Assembly (NCBI GenBank): GCA_023250755.1
Contig: JAHFAC010000055.1
Span: 1 to 9,086 of the forward strand
Reading direction: 5' to 3'
Source of the DNA: Bacteriovoracaceae bacterium
GTDB taxonomy: Bacteria > Bdellovibrionota > UBA1018
Length of the DNA stretch: 9,086 nt
The translations under genes and the position numbers were made by a program. Shown in pieces: positions 2,635 to 9,086 of this stretch. Each line of letters starts with the position of its first letter. Positions within the stretch are counted from its first letter, which is position 1. The notes below the pieces were generated by a model. It was given only the letters and a program-made list of their open reading frames with translations, had not been told where the DNA came from and ran no database searches.

Positions 2635-4920
2635 CTATTGGGTTGACGCTGGGCGTTTAAGGGTGGTGATCAGCGTTTCAAATTCAAAATAAAAATCTCT
2701 GAGTGTTGGACTTGGAATGTGAGCAATAAACTTAGAATCAGGGGTGATTTGGTATTTAGCTGGGTTTGCAGACATGAGTTGGATGGCACGTGTCGGATCA
2801 AGGTGGCTGATTTTGTCTGGAGAAAATGTTGATTTCTCAGCCCCAATAGTGAGGGTGGCAACTCCATTCGTTTTTAAAAGGAGCTTGAGACGAATCAACC
2901 AGAGTAGGTTTTGCGCTTCAATGGGCAGTGGGCCAAAGCGATCTTTAAGTTCTTCTTCAATGAGTTGAATCTCTTCCTCAGATTGAGTGGCAGACAGGCG
3001 ACGATAGAGCGAAAGACGCTGGTGAACATCGGGGAGATAGTCTTCTGCCAGAAATGAGGGAAAGGGGGCCTTAATTTCGGGCTCGCGGGACGACTCTTCG
3101 GGCAGGATCGGCTTTCCCTGCAATTCATGGATCGCCTCTTCCAGAAGTTCTGTGTAAAGGTCAAAGCCGACTGCTTCGATATGGCCAGACTGTTGAGGAC
3201 CAAGAAGATCTCCACCGCCGCGGATTTCTAGGTCATGAGAGGCAATGCTAAAACCACTTCCTAGCTCTATGAAGCGCTGAATGACTTCGAGGCGACGCTT
3301 TGCCTCCTCTGTTACGGCTCCCTCTTGAGGGATTAAAAGATAACAATAAGCGCGTTGCTGACCGCGGCCGACTCTTCCGCGAATTTGGTAAAGCTGGGCC
3401 AGTCCAAACGTGTCGGCACGGTTGATGATGATGGTGTTGGCAGACGGGAGGTCCAGCCCAGACTCGATGATTGAAGTGCAAACAAGGACATTAGTTTCTT
3501 TTCGATAAAAGGAGAGCATTGCTTTTTCAAGGGCGGCATCCCCCATTTGTCCATGTGCGACTAAAACCTTTGCGTCCGGGAGCAATTCCTGTAATTTTGC
3601 TGCCGTCTTGTCAATGGTTTGAACACGATTATGAACAAAGAAAACCTGGCCCCCTCGACTCAACTCAAACGCGACTGCGCGGCTAATTAATGCTTCATCG
3701 TACTTTGCCACATACGTGCGGATGGGGAGACGATCCAAAGGGGGCGTGGTGATGAGGCTGATGTCTCTGAGACCGGCAAGGGCCATGTGTAGAGTTCTTG
3801 GAATGGGGGTTGCGGTCAGCGTAAGAACATGGGAGCAAACCCTTAATGCTTTAAGTCGTTCTTTATGTTCGACGCCAAACCGATGTTCTTCGTCTACAAC
3901 CAAAAGGCCAAGATCACGAAAAGAGACATCTCGAGAAAGCAATCTATGGGTACCGATAACAATGTCCACTTTTCCTGTGGCAAGATTTTCAAGGATTACC
4001 TTTTGTTCTTTCGTTGATTTAAACCGCGACAAAGAGTCAATCACGATCGGATAATCTTTTAGCCTACTCTTGAATGAGAGTTCGTGTTGATTGGCAAGCA
4101 CGGTCGTCGGAACCAGAACAGCCACTTGTTTTCCATCAGTAACGGCGCGAAAAGCAGCGCGAATGGCAACCTCGGTTTTTCCGTACCCTACATCGCCACA
4201 GATAAGGCGGTCCATGACTTTTCCTGTTTCTAGATCATTCAGAGTGTCTTCAATGGCTTTGAGTTGATCAGGTGTTTCGTCAAATGGAAATTGTGCTTCA
4301 AACTCGTGAAATGAACTGTCTCGGGGAGAGTGTCGGGTACCCTGTGCGACTTTACGCTGGGCATAAAGTTGAACCAAATTGATAGCAAGTTGCTTAACTG
4401 CATCCCGAACTTTTTCTTTCACTTTTGAAAAACGCTGGCTTCCGAGACGATCTAGCGCGGTGCTTTCGGTAGGACTAATGTATTTTTGGATGACGTTTAG
4501 GCGATAGACCGGCAGGTACAACCGATCTTTATTGGCATATTCCAAGAGCAAAAAGTCGCTCGGTGCACCGGAGAGACTCAGTCGTACAAGTCCTTGATAG
4601 CGTCCAATTCCGTGGTCCACATGGACCACTAGGTCTTTGGTGCTTAGATCCGAAAGCGCTTGTAGTCCTGCCCAGTCTTTGCTGGCAGAAGAGCTTTTCT
4701 TGCGCGAAGATGCCTTGCGCACGTGTTTGCTTCCCAGGATCTCACTTTCAGTAATTAAAACCAGTCCTTCTGCTGGCCAGCGAAAGCCTGCGGAGAGCGT
4801 ACCTTCAACGAGGGTGATGAATGAGGGGTGGGGTGGGCCATTGATTTGACACGGCAAGTGTCGCTCTGAGAGAAGAAATCGAATTCGCTCTACTTGGCTT
4901 TGAGTAGAGGCAAAGGCCAC
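2635..4920 (-). CDS. mfd: Mfd C-terminal part: RNA-polymerase-interacting domain, translocase and TRCF domain
   Basis: This is the larger part of the transcription-repair coupling factor, the ATP-driven DNA translocase that pushes stalled RNA polymerase off lesions and recruits UvrA. In this 761-residue frame, the polymerase-interacting domain is near 95-150 (LVVHVDHGIGRYQGL, then YANKDRLYLPVYRL). The superfamily 2 motor follows: Walker A GDVGYGKTE at 242-250, DEEH at 343-346, TATPIPRTL at 369-377, IIESGLDLPSANT in motif V, and QIRGRVGRG at 512-520. Next come HDLEIRGGGDLLG and the C-terminal TRCF domain from about 620 (FLAEDYLPDVHQRLSLYRRL). Nothing in the motor is missing. The frame is the same as the upstream half; only the TAG at 4960-4962 and 13 codons separate them. 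The GTG at 4920 is the first possible start and has only a weak AAGG ten bases upstream. Read through, Mfd would be 1176 residues (E. coli 1148). The gene itself ends with TAG. Confidence 0.95.
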   Translation of the reverse strand: MAFASTQSQVERIRFLLSERHLPCQINGPPHPSFITLVEGTLSAGFRWPAEGLVLITESEILGSKHVRKASSRKKSSSASKDWAGLQALSDLSTKDLVVHVDHGIGRYQGLVRLSLSGAPSDFLLLEYANKDRLYLPVYRLNVIQKYISPTESTALDRLGSQRFSKVKEKVRDAVKQLAINLVQLYAQRKVAQGTRHSPRDSSFHEFEAQFPFDETPDQLKAIEDTLNDLETGKVMDRLICGDVGYGKTEVAIRAAFRAVTDGKQVAVLVPTTVLANQHELSFKSRLKDYPIVIDSLSRFKSTKEQKVILENLATGKVDIVIGTHRLLSRDVSFRDLGLLVVDEEHRFGVEHKERLKALRVCSHVLTLTATPIPRTLHMALAGLRDISLITTPPLDRLPIRTYVAKYDEALISRAVAFELSRGGQVFFVHNRVQTIDKTAAKLQELLPDAKVLVAHGQMGDAALEKAMLSFYRKETNVLVCTSIIESGLDLPSANTIIINRADTFGLAQLYQIRGRVGRGQQRAYCYLLIPQEGAVTEEAKRRLEVIQRFIELGSGFSIASHDLEIRGGGDLLGPQQSGHIEAVGFDLYTELLEEAIHELQGKPILPEESSREPEIKAPFPSFLAEDYLPDVHQRLSLYRRLSATQSEEEIQLIEEELKDRFGPLPIEAQNLLWLIRLKLLLKTNGVATLTIGAEKSTFSPDKISHLDPTRAIQLMSANPAKYQITPDSKFIAHIPSPTLRDFYFEFETLITTLKRPASTQ

Positions 4921-4959
4921 GATTTTAAAACCTTGTTTTAGCCAAAGGCGAAAGACAGG

Positions 4960-4962
4960 CTA
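4960..4962 (-). other. mfd: In-frame amber (TAG) codon inside mfd
   Basis: The plus strand reads CTA, so the gene reads GGC GAT CTT TAG CCT GTC TTT. The residues on both sides (LGDL, then PVFRLWLKQGFKIVAFAS) continue the Mfd alignment with no frame change. This is codon 402 counted from ATG 6165. A single C-to-T change from CAG (Gln) would produce it; other one-base ancestors are possible. Confidence 0.95.
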
Positions 4963-6165
4963 AAGATCGCCCAAGGAGTGACGAGTTCCAGAACTCAGAT
5001 CCGTATTGACCTGGATGAGTGGGCGTGTGTGAGAGGCTGCTTCGGTATTCTCTCGGAGGGAGTTCAGATCGGTGAGCTCAATGCGGTCCAAGCAGAGCAA
5101 GGTCCGTTTAGAGAGGAAGTGCCCATCTTCTAGAGGGGGGTGTTGAAATAAAACATCCACGGAAGGAATAATGAGCCCATGGGTCCCCATTTCAGCGGCA
5201 AAGGAGCGCTGCTGTTCAAGAAAGCGAGAAAATTCTTCATGGCATGCAGGGGCATCTACCCAAAAAATAATGCGTTCGCTAGGAAGATAATCCCAAAAGG
5301 TTGCTGGTTTTTCATACGCAAAAGGTGCCCAGGCATCGCTATAGGCAGGATAAATTCCCACCTGGACAGCAGATAGGATCGGATCGCGAATCGCTCTTGA
5401 AATCTCTGCGTCATCAGCAAAGGATTTGAGTCTTTCGCGGATTAGCGCATGGGTTTTGGCGTTGATGAGCACTTCTCTGGCAGGCGGGACCCGACAGGGG
5501 TGATCTTTAGAAAGGGGTGAGCTTACGGTGCGTTGAGACTGGGGGTCAAAAAAGCGGAGCCGCTCGACAGAATCACCCAAGAGCTCAATTCGCAAGGGGC
5601 TATCTGCGTGGGCAGGGAAGACGTCCACAATCTCTCCCCGGATTGCAAAAGTTCCAGGATCTTCGACTGTATCAACGCGCAAATAGCCCGCGTCTGTTAA
5701 CCGTACAGCAAGGGTCTCTCGGTCTTCAATATTTTTTTCAGGGTGAAGCAACGTCGATTTTTCTAAAAAGATTTCCTTAGGAAGCGTTGTCTGCCAAGTG
5801 GCTGCGAGTGTCGAAACAAAAACTTGGGGGAGATCAGGAGACAGAGTATGTTCAAGTGCGCCCAAGCGCGCCAGGCGCGTGCGTATTGCTGGGGTTACCG
5901 AGGTATAAGGGGATTGCTCCCAAGTCGGAAGATGGATGGCCCGAGGTTTTCCCTCGAAAAGGGCGGTGCTGAGCGATTCTATGTCTAAAGTAAGATCGCG
6001 AGCAATATCATCATTAGGGCAAAGAACCACACAGCTTCGGTTGGTGTTGATGAGCTCATGGAGGATAACAAGGGCTTGGGCTGCGCCCGTGAGGCCGTGA
6101 GTGTGTGCTTTTCCGGGAAAAGCGTGGGCAGAACTCAGTAGGGTTGCAATTCGGCTTGTGGCCAT
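4960..6165 (-). CDS. mfd: Mfd N-terminal part: UvrB-like module, ended by an in-frame amber codon
   Basis: This 401-residue frame carries the UvrB-homology module (domains D1a-D2-D1b) of Mfd. Visible are HGLTGAAQAL at 23-32 (the degenerate nucleotide-binding loop; Mfd lacks ATPase activity here) and GTFAIRGEIVDVFP at 171-184. Arg176 and Arg192 match E. coli Arg165 and Arg181, which contact UvrA; E. coli Phe185 is Leu196 here. FFDPQSQRT follows. The reading stops at TAG just before domain D3. I chose ATG 6165, which has AAAAAAGGA ending three bases upstream. An in-frame GTG at 6207 would add 14 residues, but it sits inside the proposed promoter and lacks a ribosome site. Family knowledge: D2 is normally masked by D7 until Mfd binds polymerase, so a free N-terminal half would expose its UvrA site. 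Whether this is a real short protein, a broken gene or a base error cannot be told from the sequence. Confidence 0.92.
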   Translation of the reverse strand: MATSRIATLLSSAHAFPGKAHTHGLTGAAQALVILHELINTNRSCVVLCPNDDIARDLTLDIESLSTALFEGKPRAIHLPTWEQSPYTSVTPAIRTRLARLGALEHTLSPDLPQVFVSTLAATWQTTLPKEIFLEKSTLLHPEKNIEDRETLAVRLTDAGYLRVDTVEDPGTFAIRGEIVDVFPAHADSPLRIELLGDSVERLRFFDPQSQRTVSSPLSKDHPCRVPPAREVLINAKTHALIRERLKSFADDAEISRAIRDPILSAVQVGIYPAYSDAWAPFAYEKPATFWDYLPSERIIFWVDAPACHEEFSRFLEQQRSFAAEMGTHGLIIPSVDVLFQHPPLEDGHFLSKRTLLCLDRIELTDLNSLRENTEAASHTRPLIQVNTDLSSGTRHSLGDL

Positions 6166-6168
6166 AGA

Positions 6169-6172
6169 TCCT
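6169..6172 (-). promoter_or_regulatory. Ribosome binding site of mfd
   Basis: AGGA, within AAAAAAGGA on the minus strand, ends three bases before ATG 6165. The spacing is short but it is the only Shine-Dalgarno-like site near the candidate starts, and it favours ATG 6165 over GTG 6207. Confidence 0.5.
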
Positions 6173-6188
6173 TTTTTGGGTGGCAAGA

Positions 6189-6217
6189 ACTCTACCGACC
6201 TTGACACAAAATTTCAA
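6189..6217 (-). promoter_or_regulatory. Sigma70-like promoter for mfd
   Basis: On the minus strand TTGAAA (6217-6212) is followed after exactly 17 bases by TAGAGT (6194-6189), five and four matches to the consensus. Transcription would start near 6182, about 17 bases before ATG 6165. It overlaps the opposite nuo promoter. Confidence 0.5.
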
Positions 6218-6271: not shown

Positions 6272-6670
6272 ATGCCAAGCGGCTGGGACGTTTATTATGT
6301 AGTTCTTCTTTCAGCGGGGCTTGCACTTACAATTCCAGCTTTTCTGGCCTTTATTTCCTTTTTAGTTCAGGCGAAAGCGAAGAAAAGCGACAAAAGAGCT
6401 ACTGAAACCACCAAACAGGGGCGACGGCTGAATACCCGGTTTTTCATGGGTGTAAATGCGGCACTGATTTTGATCGCTTTTATTTTAGTCTTGGTGCCAT
6501 GTATTGGAGCGGCAGATGCAGGCTTGTTGCGGGGTGGTCTGATTCGAAGGTTAATTGCCATTGTGAGTGTTTCTCTTTTTTCATCAGTAGGATTGCTTTA
6601 TGCGGTTCGTAAAGGCGATTTAGATTGGTTGAATACCTATCGACATGAAAAGGCGGATGGAGAAAAATAG
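6272..6670 (+). CDS. nuoA: Divergent NuoA-like subunit of complex I
   Basis: This 132-residue membrane protein has three hydrophobic segments (about residues 8-33, 57-82 and 88-111), the topology of NuoA/ND3. Support for NuoA is its place directly before nuoB, the RFF motif opening the second segment, and the tail YAVRKGDLDWL at 110-120, which matches E. coli YLVRIGALDW. It is otherwise highly divergent. The loop between segments 1 and 2 is short, lysine-rich and lacks the Pro-Tyr-Glu-Cys-Gly or equivalent motif. E. coli Asp79, Glu81 and Glu102 align with Ile68, Phe70 and about Ala96. The first two rest on a gap-free match from RFF; the third depends on a five-residue indel in the loop. The membrane parts therefore appear to hold no acidic residue. 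The start is supported by AGGGAG five bases upstream. It is the first gene of the operon and ends one base before the chosen nuoB start. Confidence 0.77.
   Translation: MPSGWDVYYVVLLSAGLALTIPAFLAFISFLVQAKAKKSDKRATETTKQGRRLNTRFFMGVNAALILIAFILVLVPCIGAADAGLLRGGLIRRLIAIVSVSLFSSVGLLYAVRKGDLDWLNTYRHEKADGEK
6659..6662 (+). promoter_or_regulatory. Ribosome binding site that favours the GTG start of nuoB
   Basis: GGAG lies nine bases before GTG 6672, immediately downstream of the nuoA stop (TAG, one base, GTG). ATG 6657 has only AAAAGG three bases away and ATG 6645 has none. Confidence 0.5.
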
Positions 6671-6671
6671 A

Positions 6672-7139
6672 GTGAGTAGGGGTGGGGATTTTTTTGCTTC
6701 AACATTAAAGAAAGTGCTTCACTGGGCCCAGGGACAGTCTTTCTGGATGACCACAGCAGGGTCCGGATGTTGTGCGGATGAGCTCTTTGCGACCTTTGGG
6801 GCTCGTTATGATTTAGAGCGGTTTGGATGTTTGGCGGCTTTGGATCCAAAGCAGGCAGATCTTTTAGTGGTGAGTGGGCTAGTATCAATTAAAGCAGCGC
6901 CCCATTTGCGCACGCTTTATGACTCGATGGTTAATCCGCGTTATGTCATTGCGTTGGGGGCTTGCGCGTGTTCGGGAGGCGCATTTTGTGGGGCCGCGAA
7001 CTATTCGGTTGTTTGCGGAGTGGATCAGATTGTACCCGTAGATGTTTATGTGGCGGGATGCCCACCCAGGCCAGAGGCAATCATGAATGGATTGATTAAA
7101 TTGCAGGAAAAAATCAGTGGAATTGCCGCACAAATTTGA
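6672..7139 (+). CDS. nuoB: NuoB, complex I subunit carrying iron-sulfur cluster N2
   Basis: NuoB holds the last [4Fe-4S] cluster (N2), which passes electrons to quinone beside NuoD. The four ligands are present: the paired Cys33-Cys34 in AGSGCCADE, Cys98 in GACACSGG and Cys130 in GCPPRPEA (155 residues from GTG 6672). Glu37, the conserved acid three after the Cys pair, is kept. RYDLERFG, LYDSMVNPRYVIALGA and YSVV.G.D.IVPVDVY match the family well. Differences: the usual Phe-Gly-Leu/Thr before the Cys pair is Ala-Gly-Ser, the position after Glu-Met is Phe48 in long-form numbering (a Met near quinone in Yarrowia), and an extra Cys100 sits two residues after the third ligand. In-frame ATGs at 6645 and 6657 would add nine or five residues and overlap nuoA. 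I chose GTG 6672 for its ribosome site, with moderate confidence. It overlaps nuoC by 23 bases. Confidence 0.93.
   Translation: MSRGGDFFASTLKKVLHWAQGQSFWMTTAGSGCCADELFATFGARYDLERFGCLAALDPKQADLLVVSGLVSIKAAPHLRTLYDSMVNPRYVIALGACACSGGAFCGAANYSVVCGVDQIVPVDVYVAGCPPRPEAIMNGLIKLQEKISGIAAQI
7105..7108 (+). promoter_or_regulatory. Ribosome binding site that decides the GTG start of nuoC
   Basis: AGGA lies eight bases before GTG 7117. The alternative ATG at 7159 has only a weak GAG four bases upstream. Confidence 0.6.
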
Positions 7140-7578
7140 ATCACTTATCAAGAGATCAATGCCTGAGACCGTTCTGCAATGGCAACCTTTTGGGCGCACA
7201 AAAAAAAAGGTACTTTGGGTTGAAGGGCGCTTCTTGTTGGAGATATCCCGTGTATTGAGGGATGACCCAGAACATTGTTTAGATTGGCTAGAAAATCTTT
7301 CAGTTATGGATGTGGAGGGAGCTTTGGTATTGACTTATTTTCTTCGGTCGACACAGACACAAAGTTCTTTCCTTCTGCGTGTTTCATTAGCACCAATGAA
7401 GCCCGAGGATTCCGTGGAGACATTTTCGATTGCTTCCATTTGGCCTATGGGCAGGCGAATGGAGCTGGAGGCTTCAGAGCTTTTCGGAATTCAGTTCATC
7501 GGAAACCATAGAGAAACAGCATTAATTTTATCAGAAGACCCGAAGGGCTTTCCACAGAGGAAAGGGTATCGACGATGA
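7117..7578 (+). CDS. nuoC: NuoC, 30-kDa-type peripheral subunit of complex I
   Basis: NuoC is a structural subunit of the hydrophilic arm that packs against NuoD and NuoB. The 153-residue product is slightly short for the family. The signature region is at 107-150: IWPMGRRMELEASELFGIQF, then ALILSEDPKGFPQRKGY. This follows the family pattern of a tryptophan-proline, Glu-x-x-x-Glu-hydrophobic-Phe-Gly-Ile, then Leu-x-Glu-Asp, Gly, Pro and Arg-Lys. It is divergent: the usual Tyr-Asp before Phe-Gly-Ile is Ser-Glu, and Gly-His-Pro is Gly-Asn-His. The body (about 50-105) fits the alternating strands of the fold. The gene is separate from nuoD, unlike the fused nuoCD of E. coli. GTG 7117 is preferred over ATG 7159 because of its AGGA. 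The stop overlaps the nuoD start as ATGA. Confidence 0.88.
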   Translation: MELPHKFESLIKRSMPETVLQWQPFGRTKKKVLWVEGRFLLEISRVLRDDPEHCLDWLENLSVMDVEGALVLTYFLRSTQTQSSFLLRVSLAPMKPEDSVETFSIASIWPMGRRMELEASELFGIQFIGNHRETALILSEDPKGFPQRKGYRR

Positions 7579-8711
7579 TGGATGCGGTGAGTGAGTGCAT
7601 CGACACAGATCTCACTTCTTGGAAAATTGGCCCTTATCATGGAGCATTGCCGGGACCCATTCAGGTTCATATGGAGTTAGATGGTGAAATTATTGTTTCA
7701 GCAAAAGTCGAGACAGGTTTTCTCCACCGAGGACTTGAAAAAGAACTTGAGCTTCATTCTTGGCAAGTCGCTATGGTCTATGTTGATCATTTGGATCCTG
7801 AAGGGGCAGCCTTTGCTGAACAAGTCCTGTGTCTTGCGGTAGAGGAGATTGGTGATATTTTTGTTCCGCCAAGGGCATGCACGATTCGGGTTATTGTTCA
7901 GGAGTTGAGCAGGATCTCTGTACACTTAAATTATATGGCTCGTTTAGCACGAAGTGTGGGCGCCGATACCGTGATTCATTATATTCTCCGCGACCGTGAA
8001 AAAATTTTGGATCTCTTCGAGCTGCTTTGCGGTGCTCGTTTTTCTCTGAATTATTTTCGTTTCGGGGGCGTTCGGTCAGATATGACCGAGGGGTTTGTTG
8101 AGCGGATTTTTGAGCTTTGTGACTTACTGAAGGTTCGATTAAAAGAGTACAATGATCTTTTTTCGTTCAATCTCGCGTTTTTAGAGCGAGCAGCAGCACT
8201 TGGGATATTGAGTATGGAGATGGCATTTCGGCATGGCGTAACAGGCCCGAATGCAAGGGCTGTGGGGATCTCTTTTGATGTCAGAAAGACCCATCCCTAT
8301 AGTGGATACGCTGAACTTGATTTTAACATCCCAACAGGGGGTGGGACGGGCAAAACGTCTGGGGGCGTCTATGAAAGGTTTATACTTAGAATTAGAGAGA
8401 TTGAACAGAGCGTGGAAATTCTAAGGCAAGCGGCAGAAAAAATAACGCCCGGAGCTTATTTGGATCCTAAGTGGGAAAGAAATCCGTCTATTCCTTCGGG
8501 CGAGGCCTATTCGCGCGTAGAAAGCGCGAGAGGTCTTCTTGGGTGCCATGTTGTTTCAGATGGCGGCGCAGTACCGAACCGAATTCAGTTTCGCCCCCCT
8601 TCGATTGGATTGATCGAAGTATTTCCTCAGCTCATTGGGGGGACGAGAATTGAGGATTTGCCAGTTGTACTCGCAAGCCTTGACATAAGTATTTCGGAGA
8701 TTGATCGATGA
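7575..8711 (+). CDS. nuoD: NuoD, 49-kDa-type subunit of complex I, with an altered quinone pocket
   Basis: The 378-residue protein is clearly NuoD: GFLHRGLEK at 48-56, RACTIRVIVQELSRI at 100-114, SLNYFRFGGVRSDM, DVRKTHPYSGY, YERFILRIREIEQS, VSDGGAVPNRIQFRPPS and the terminal SEIDR. It lacks the two CxxC pairs of [NiFe] hydrogenases, so it is not a hydrogenase subunit. Aligned without gaps to the bovine subunit (offset 33), His22 keeps bovine His55 and Arg52 keeps Arg85. The quinone-contacting residues are replaced: His59 by Pro26, Tyr108 by Pro75 and Asp160 by Ser127. The surrounding anchors are kept, including Asp71, Leu73 and Asp74 around Pro75, and Gly129 and Ala130 after Ser127. The start is ATG 7575, with a second in-frame ATG at 7578; AAAGGG ends eight bases upstream. 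It shares ATGA overlaps with nuoC before it and nuoH after it, so translation is coupled. Confidence 0.96.
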   Translation: MMDAVSECIDTDLTSWKIGPYHGALPGPIQVHMELDGEIIVSAKVETGFLHRGLEKELELHSWQVAMVYVDHLDPEGAAFAEQVLCLAVEEIGDIFVPPRACTIRVIVQELSRISVHLNYMARLARSVGADTVIHYILRDREKILDLFELLCGARFSLNYFRFGGVRSDMTEGFVERIFELCDLLKVRLKEYNDLFSFNLAFLERAAALGILSMEMAFRHGVTGPNARAVGISFDVRKTHPYSGYAELDFNIPTGGGTGKTSGGVYERFILRIREIEQSVEILRQAAEKITPGAYLDPKWERNPSIPSGEAYSRVESARGLLGCHVVSDGGAVPNRIQFRPPSIGLIEVFPQLIGGTRIEDLPVVLASLDISISEIDR

Positions 8712-9086
8712 AACCATGGGTCAATGCCTGGGAAAATTTGCTGGGTTTATCTAGTGACTTATCAGAAGGGTGGGTCGCAATCATTGCGCTTCTGTTTGCG
8801 TATTTTTTGGTCATTATTCCCACAGCATTACTCGTAGCCCATCTTGAGAGAAAAATGGCAGCAGATTTTCAGGCAAGGGTTGGGCCTAGTCGAGCAGGGC
8901 CTGCTGGTTTTTTTCAGCCGATGGCCGATCTTCTTAAGCTTTTACAGAAAGATTCTGGTGGGGATCGCCGACGAGGCGAGGATTTGTGGTTTCTTATCTT
9001 AACCATGTCCTTGTTTTCGACGGTTGCCGTTCTTCCGTTGGGGACACTTTCATTGCTAGTAGACACAGACCTCAGCGCATTATTGC
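8708..9086 (+). CDS. nuoH: NuoH, ND1-type membrane subunit of complex I (3' end off the window)
   Basis: NuoH forms the mouth of the quinone channel and joins the hydrophilic and membrane arms. The first 126 codons are visible, about 40 percent of the family length. The first membrane segment is about residues 20-43 (WVAIIALLFAYFLVIIPTAL). It is followed by the cytoplasmic loop with HLERK, FQARVGPSRAGPAGFFQP and MADLLKLLQKD, matching the family's ERK, RxGPNRxGPxGxxQP and ADxxKLxxKE. The conserved Asn after Gly-Pro is Ser, and the Pro of the Lys-Glu-Asp-x-x-Pro motif is missing; instead there is GGDRRRGED. A second membrane segment starts near residue 97. The acidic and basic residues of the channel entrance seen in other NuoH proteins are kept, in contrast to NuoD and NuoA. 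ATG 8708 overlaps the nuoD stop (ATGA) and has GGAG eight bases upstream. Confidence 0.96.
   Translation, partial: MKPWVNAWENLLGLSSDLSEGWVAIIALLFAYFLVIIPTALLVAHLERKMAADFQARVGPSRAGPAGFFQPMADLLKLLQKDSGGDRRRGEDLWFLILTMSLFSTVAVLPLGTLSLLVDTDLSALL

Follow-up and report, generated by a model that had tools for sequence, protein, structure and literature searches.

A predicted second complex I-like gene set in Bdellovibrio-related bacteria lacks the quinone triad and most proton-path residues

We describe a complex I-like gene set whose predicted products keep the twelve-cysteine wire of clusters N2, N6a and N6b and are devoid of the quinone triad and of most pumping residues. Judged from sequence, the complex would pass electrons from a ferredoxin-type donor to N2 and on to an acceptor other than quinone, without pumping protons, and we give this assignment about an even chance of being right. 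The stretch of DNA analysed here (the window) is 9,086 bp long and is a contig (JAHFAC010000055.1) from the assembly of a Bacteriovoracaceae bacterium (GCA_023250755.1). Genes of the divergent set are marked with a prime, to set them apart from the canonical nuo genes.

The primed operon and its distribution

The window holds nuoA' to nuoD' and part of nuoH', all on the forward strand. nuoA' (6272..6670) encodes a divergent NuoA of 132 aa with no Pfam match; a match to PRK08489 (E 8e-4) is below its cut-off. When this protein is compared with that of E. coli, E51 is unmatched (no residue), D79 is replaced by Ile68 and E81 by Phe70. The N2 subunit of 164 aa is encoded by nuoB' (6645..7139), and all of its N2 cysteines (C42, C43, C107 and C139) are present; the codons of the tandem ligands C42-C43, computed from the residue numbers, lie at 6768..6773. 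In the same protein Asp45 stands after the CC pair, Ala84 and Ala65 replace canonical Met106 and Arg87, respectively, and E84 has no matching residue. The remaining genes are nuoC' (7117..7578), for a divergent 30-kDa subunit of 153 aa, nuoD' (7575..8711), an open reading frame for a 49-kDa homologue of 378 aa, and the first part of nuoH' (8708..9086). The contig ends at 9086, with nuoI' beyond that end and nuoJ' to nuoN' absent from the window.

The complete operon is found in relatives (e.g. locus L036), where it reads A'B'C'D'H'I'J'K'L'M'N'. The window's nuoD' can hence be assigned to a putative second complex I-like operon beside canonical complex I. The genes for the NADH module (nuoE, nuoF and nuoG) are absent from the primed set, with nuoH' directly following nuoD' in both the window and its relatives; they reside in the canonical operon. 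Canonical B, C, D, E and F of the window's own genome are on another contig (C205). In relatives, the primed operon is directly upstream of the canonical 14-gene nuo operon. The gap from the nuoN' stop to canonical nuoA on the same strand is 6–264 bp at 31 loci in 30 genomes, with the nuoA start set by rule as the first Met near 120 residues from the end. These totals come from a list of 32 entries, one of which (L059, −8500) is a mislabelled gene at the same locus as L147, and two of which (L063 and L148) are from the same genome. In five genomes (G026, G001, G017, G024 and G057) the canonical operon after nuoN' runs on to nuoN. In G055, which belongs to a different family of this class, the primed genes between mfd and canonical nuoA are diverged.

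Primed genes, whole or partial, are present in 54 of the 58 genomes of the class: 34/35 in f1 (the window's family), 4/4 in f2, 1/1 each in f3, f4, f6 and f8, 11/13 in f5 and 1/2 in f7. They were not found in G008, a genome that is 56% complete, or in G056, where the contig starts at nuoA. The other two genomes, G046 and G048, have a clean empty site, in which mfd is followed by ~100 bp and then by canonical nuoA (loci L174 and L173). These are two species of a genus whose other sampled members carry the primed operon. The primed block is dispensable in G046 and G048, which keep canonical nuo.

The operon varies in content. In the two f5 loci that were read, L' is shortened to ~300–414 aa and M' to 327–353 aa, and C' is missing, as it also is in f4; the cysteines of B' and I' persist in these f5 loci. 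G055 has four large membrane proteins (582, 446, 481 and 476 aa) between K' and canonical nuoA (L161 11483-17468), the usual number at that site being three. G044 has a 1060-aa frame that matches M' and overlaps the L' region (L147 5493-8675), which may reflect a fusion or an extended frame. Six genomes of the order (L077-L080, L084 and L085) have a third complex I elsewhere in the genome; this is an 11-gene A-N set with the full triad and most proton-path residues, and its M K234 is not Lys in 5/6. The mfd-like gene of the window itself (2635-6207, reverse strand) has one in-frame stop, at codon 416 (4960-4962). In relatives mfd is a single frame of 1134–1181 aa, and the split in the window is either a genuine lesion or an assembly error.

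The quinone site and the iron-sulfur wire

The first-pass annotation had proposed that the window's NuoD' has lost all three residues of the quinone triad, and this is borne out by a gap-free alignment together with a structural match, which also rule out misalignment of the triad. Pro26 (codon 7650..7652) is at the place of His38 in Nqo4 and H224 in E. coli NuoCD; Pro75 (7797..7799) is at that of Nqo4 Tyr87 and E. coli Y273; and Ser127 (7953..7955) is at that of Nqo4 Asp139 and E. coli D325. The acid Glu76 (7800..7802) adjoins the lost Tyr. The companion claim, that the triad is gone while the fold and the N2 ligands are retained, is likewise upheld.

When the three positions were mapped in homologues, as the same annotation had suggested, Pro was found at position 26 in 116 and at position 75 in 116 of the 120 sequences listed (query included), and Asp at position 127 in none of the 120. 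A sister family has Pro/Pro/Arg in 44/50 rows. NuoD of the canonical type (the D2 rows of the same set, with the window's own genome included) has His/Tyr/Asp in 37/37. Where the listed sequences carry names, these are mostly of Bdellovibrionota MAGs (Bdellovibrionales, Oligoflexia and Bdellovibrionia), and one is labelled Methylotenera. A further set of 28 loci contains 26 that belong to the NuoD' family or to its Tyr-bearing relatives, with labels that include Bdellovibrionales, Oligoflexia, Bacteriovoracaceae and Deltaproteobacteria; the remaining two, from Bacteroidales, have the full triad. Triad-less nuoD' is present in many separate assemblies, ruling out an oddity of one MAG. A scan of viral contigs found no relative.

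The losses in NuoD' are selective. There are 40 columns with a charged residue, His or Tyr conserved in 14 canonical rows; 37 of these are retained by the majority of 28 primed rows, and the three that are lost are exactly the triad. The alignments indicate that triad loss spans the whole family. Intermediate states occur in families f2, f7 and f8, where the Tyr is kept and the His is lost. The place of the Asp is taken by Val, Gln, Asn or Thr in f2, by Ile in f7 and by Glu in f8; f4 and f8 thus have Glu at this place, not a neutral residue.

The cluster ligands are retained almost without exception. Of the four N2 ligands of NuoB', C63 is present in 26/27 rows and C64, C129 and C158 in 27/27 each; the eight cysteines of NuoI' are present in 27/27. 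A scan for the cysteine motifs that also took in diverged families, and left out 15 loci by name (outgroups, duplicates, L166 and L167), found them in 46/48 B' and 46/47 I' proteins. The B' misses are L037, which has GCPA for GCPP with the Cys present, and L041, an A'-B' fusion in a contig with unread bases; the I' miss is L148, which is shortened by its reading frame. L166 and L167 are outside the class, and B'-like genes are present in both. The predicted primed proteins of relatives therefore keep the twelve cysteines of N2, N6a and N6b.

Gains accompany the losses around N2. Position 76 of D' is Glu or Asp in 202 of 205 Tyr-less rows, as against 0 of 59 Tyr-bearing rows, although one gene may be counted here, and in the B' rows below, both as a locus row and as a protein record. 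The exceptions are P0035, a family member with Arg, and the outgroup sequences P0179 and P0181; the f7 row is an exception of another kind, with the Tyr kept and Asp at 76. In B', an Asp follows the tandem CC in 32/40 rows; canonical rows have Ile there in 43/43. The canonical B residues M69, R87 and M106, each found in 43/43 canonical rows, are found in only 3, 0 and 5 of 40 B' rows, respectively. Because acids were gained, Glu/Asp76 in D' and Asp after CC in B', the quinone pocket appears to have been rebuilt, not just emptied. The I' proteins have a feature of their own (e.g. L036 8094-8627), a conserved motif around YPDP(I/V)SS that contains two inserted residues when compared with canonical NuoI. 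It is possibly a donor-docking feature.

The membrane arm and the history of the lineage

We compared the membrane subunits at residues of the proton path of complex I (E. coli numbering). Many of these sites are empty throughout: A' D79 and E81 (0/23 primed rows); H' E157, E216 and E218 (0/28); J' Y59 (0/24); L' E144, D178, H254, H334, H338 and K399 (0/22); and M' E144 and E407 (0/23). H' E228 is kept in 1/28. At other sites with no canonical residue left, one substitute predominates: Gln replaces K' E36 (0/23; Gln 20) and E72 (0/23; Gln 18), L' K229 (0/22; Gln 14), and N' E133 and K217 (0/23 each; Gln 14 each), Pro replaces M' K265 (0/23; Pro 21), and Arg replaces N' K247 (0/23; Arg 20). This last change is one of three conservative swaps, the others being M K234 to Arg (23/23) and H E36 to Asp or Glu (25/28). 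Charge is kept at N K395 (18/23), M D135 (23/23), N K158 (22/23) and H R46 and D63 (28/28 each).

When positions −4 to +4 around 18 sites were counted for Asp, Glu and Lys (with Arg and His uncounted), 12 sites had none of the three in any primed row, and at four the fraction did not exceed 0.13. Two sites stand apart: the H216 loop has an Asp at −3 in 0.71, and at N395 the Lys itself is retained in 0.78. The motifs that flank the compared residues can be aligned clearly in K, M, N, H and J, and with the least certainty in L'. Canonical comparison rows for H-N are few (4 of set2, and 5 or 6 of set3), and within them the path is kept, except for M K234 in set3 (5/6 other), K E72 in one set3 row and N H305 in 4/5 set3 rows. 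Among the diverged families, f2 retains M K265, M E407 and N E133. Taken together, the alignments indicate that most proton-path residues of the seven membrane subunits (A, H, J, K, L, M and N) have gone, with Gln a frequent replacement.

Outside the class, the nine NuoD loci that were read all have the full triad. The surroundings of canonical nuo were read in 11 genomes there, in 10 of them on both sides. In two of these, G083 and G137, canonical nuoI is immediately followed by a B'-D'-I' trio (L183 14453-16576 and L184 14651-16733), with no membrane gene between or adjoining. A search of 191 genomes of the phylum with D' of G137 gave 117 matches, mostly to other NuoD types, and revealed a third such trio in G146, also directly behind canonical nuoI (L223 7424-9650). 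The same search led to a reduced set in G073 (L224 3249-8719), consisting of B', D', a 248-aa protein with 4 TM segments, I', a small protein with 2 TM segments and a pair of large membrane proteins. All four of these genomes keep the four N2 and the eight NuoI cysteines. At the Tyr place they have no Tyr aligned (Glu, Ser, Pro and His), and the loop that carries the first His is either missing or cannot be aligned. These very diverged proteins, which are outside our tree, are linked to the primed lineage by profile scores: the primed profile gives the best score for 10 of the 12 proteins, the exceptions being D' of G083 and I' of G146, which score slightly better against the set3 profile. On the evidence of the trios and the G073 set, the primed lineage seems to be older than the class, and it seems able to lose its membrane arm.

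The primed genes are under purifying selection and are not decaying. For D', dN/dS is 0.026 (G026/G031), 0.105 (G002/G025) and 0.030 (G038/G045). Many pairs are saturated at dS; where dS could be estimated, the other primed genes have dN/dS of 0.25 or less, except for a value of 0.657 for I' (L034/L040) that comes from one over-long frame. Canonical genes of the same species pairs have dN/dS of 0.17 or less. The frames of the listed primed loci are open except in G039 (L053, contig C22), which has one in-frame TAG inside nuoD'; in G014 and G037, a TAA at the start of the match precedes an intact frame.

In a NuoD tree of 88 rows, one branch (SH-aLRT 99) has the 45 His/Tyr/Asp rows on the same side, and a second branch (also 99) does so for the 36 Tyr-less rows. 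In its canonical part, f7 diverges first and f2 next, ahead of the remaining families of the order. The tree comes from a quick search and has long branches, and the placement of f4, f5 and f8 is unsure. Within the class, the simplest story would be that of one paralogue in which the His and Asp were lost first and the Tyr was lost once, later.

Proposed function, alternatives and significance

What could a complex I relative do without the quinone triad? We infer that the complex assembles with its clusters loaded, that it has a donor, that an acceptor is served in the rebuilt pocket, and that the membrane arm does no more than anchor the complex. The N6a-N6b-N2 wire would be fed by a ferredoxin-type donor or by canonical NuoEFG; a ferredoxin-type donor is likely because the primed operon has no NADH module. 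Electrons would leave N2 for a non-quinone acceptor in the acidic pocket formed by Pro26, Pro75, Ser127 and Glu76 of D' and Asp45 of B'. Such a role would be in keeping with the eroded membrane arm of f5 and with trios that have no membrane genes beside them. A bolder reading, to which we give somewhat less than an even chance, is that of an old complex I paralogue turned redox machine: quinone chemistry and the pump would have been switched off residue by residue with the wire held fixed, the acidic site beside N2 (D' Glu76 and B' Asp45) would reduce another acceptor, and some lineages would have shed the membrane arm and kept just the B'-D'-I' wire. The first-pass annotation had offered three possibilities, namely that the complex reduces something else, binds quinone differently or accepts electrons in reverse. 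The sequences fit best with a complex that does not carry out ordinary quinone reduction; the reverse direction is disfavoured, since it would need a pump and the proton path is mostly lost in all seven membrane subunits.

One complex I relative whose proximal cluster reduces an acceptor other than quinone is already known: MBS, the membrane-bound sulfane sulfur reductase of Pyrococcus. As described in PMC7684303, MBS is without equivalents of His38 and Tyr87, as primed D' is; its proximal cluster, which has three Cys ligands, reduces sulfane sulfur, and the complex is described as ion-pumping. In contrast, the primed set keeps the tandem CC and all four ligands and, judged by its residues, would not be a pump, since most of the charges are gone. 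D' also scores nearer to complex I (Nqo4, 260 bits) than to MbsL (204 bits). The earlier statement that no described complex I has this combination is thus too strong at the level of the superfamily, although MBS differs in being described as a pump. The group 4 [NiFe] hydrogenases, including MBH, belong to the same superfamily, and MbhL has Glu at the place of His38, which marks the site as reusable (PMC11228991). Nonetheless, MbhL (6cfw_L) scores only 129 bits, and D' of the window has no CxxC for the NiFe site; a [NiFe] hydrogenase requires two CxxC motifs and is ruled out.

Cyanobacterial and chloroplast NDH-1 has 11 subunits and no NADH module. This ferredoxin-dependent complex resembles the primed set in that the best score of B' is to NdhK, in which the residue after RFG-x is missing, as in primed B'. 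We therefore dropped the idea that this one-residue deletion is unique to NuoB'. Unlike triad-less D', NdhH keeps the canonical motifs in the alignment. With canonical complex I (Nuo, Nqo or NDH-1, of 11 or 14 subunits), the primed set of relatives shares all eleven core subunits, A-D and H-N, in one cluster; it differs in having neither the triad nor most proton-path residues, and no nuoEFG between D' and H'. Searches of open-licence papers gave no account of a complex I without triad and charges in these bacteria, and a complex I survey (PMC12361115) gave no hit for the words bdellovibrio and paralog. For the loss of His38 and Tyr87, MBS is a precedent; among the open-licence papers searched, we found no complete homologue of complex I that would be without most pumping residues as well.

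The main rival explanation is that the primed complex is a structural or regulatory pseudoenzyme, a partner of the adjoining canonical complex I as half of a heterodimer or as a redox-gated assembly partner, with clusters that sense redox state. The tandem, co-directional linkage to canonical nuo with short gaps at 31 loci is what such a partnership would predict, the trios of G083, G137 and G146 are also directly behind canonical nuoI, and scaffolds persist where catalytic and pumping residues are gone. However, canonical nuo is kept in G046 and G048, where the primed block is absent, which argues against a strictly needed partner. Mere scaffolding would have no need of the twelve cluster cysteines, and it sits poorly with the acids gained in the pocket and with three genomes that have no membrane subunit beside the trio. 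We consider a pseudoenzyme partner possible but on balance unlikely.

Two further alternatives carry less weight. An uncoupled ferredoxin:quinone reductase, in which quinone would bind elsewhere in the tunnel or less deeply and no protons would be pumped, would explain why R46 and D63 of NuoH' are invariant in the 28 rows and why many other canonical residues persist in H', B' and D'. We regard it as improbable: the two residues that hold the head group and supply its protons have mostly been replaced by Pro, M69, R87 and M106 of NuoB' have almost disappeared (3, 0 and 5 of 40), and there are trios with no H' beside them. Moreover, the lost tyrosine of the quinone site is described as essential (PMC7434922, PMC8119997). 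Least credible of all, and in our view very improbable, is that the set is a decaying extra copy of complex I or a product of misassembly. A second, canonical nuoD does exist, as a decaying copy would require, two species have lost the block, D' of G039 has its in-frame TAG, and membrane subunits are shrunken in f5 and missing beside the trios. Yet decay is contradicted by the dN/dS of D' (0.026–0.105), primed genes are retained in 54/58 genomes of the class, the losses in D' are confined to functional residues and are accompanied by gains, and the genes recur in many separate assemblies.

What is the significance of a wire without quinone chemistry or a pump? How electron transfer at N2 drives proton pumping in the distant membrane arm is a central open question of complex I. 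The primed set represents an evolutionary subtraction from that machine, with the same eleven subunits and cluster ligands, minus the triad and most of the charged axis. It comes with intermediates, in that f2, f7 and f8 keep the Tyr after loss of the His and f2 keeps some of the charges in M and N, and with end points in which just the B'-D'-I' trio is left. The order in which things were lost reveals which parts are interdependent, and the clean empty site of two species amounts to a knock-out made by nature. If the redox-machine reading is true, this would be the first complex I relative with electron transfer freed from ion translocation. Many Bdellovibrio-related bacteria have this second complex I gene set beside their normal respiratory complex I. 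If its wire feeds another acceptor, the complex I superfamily would gain a redox reaction, and these bacteria a branch point next to their main respiratory entry.
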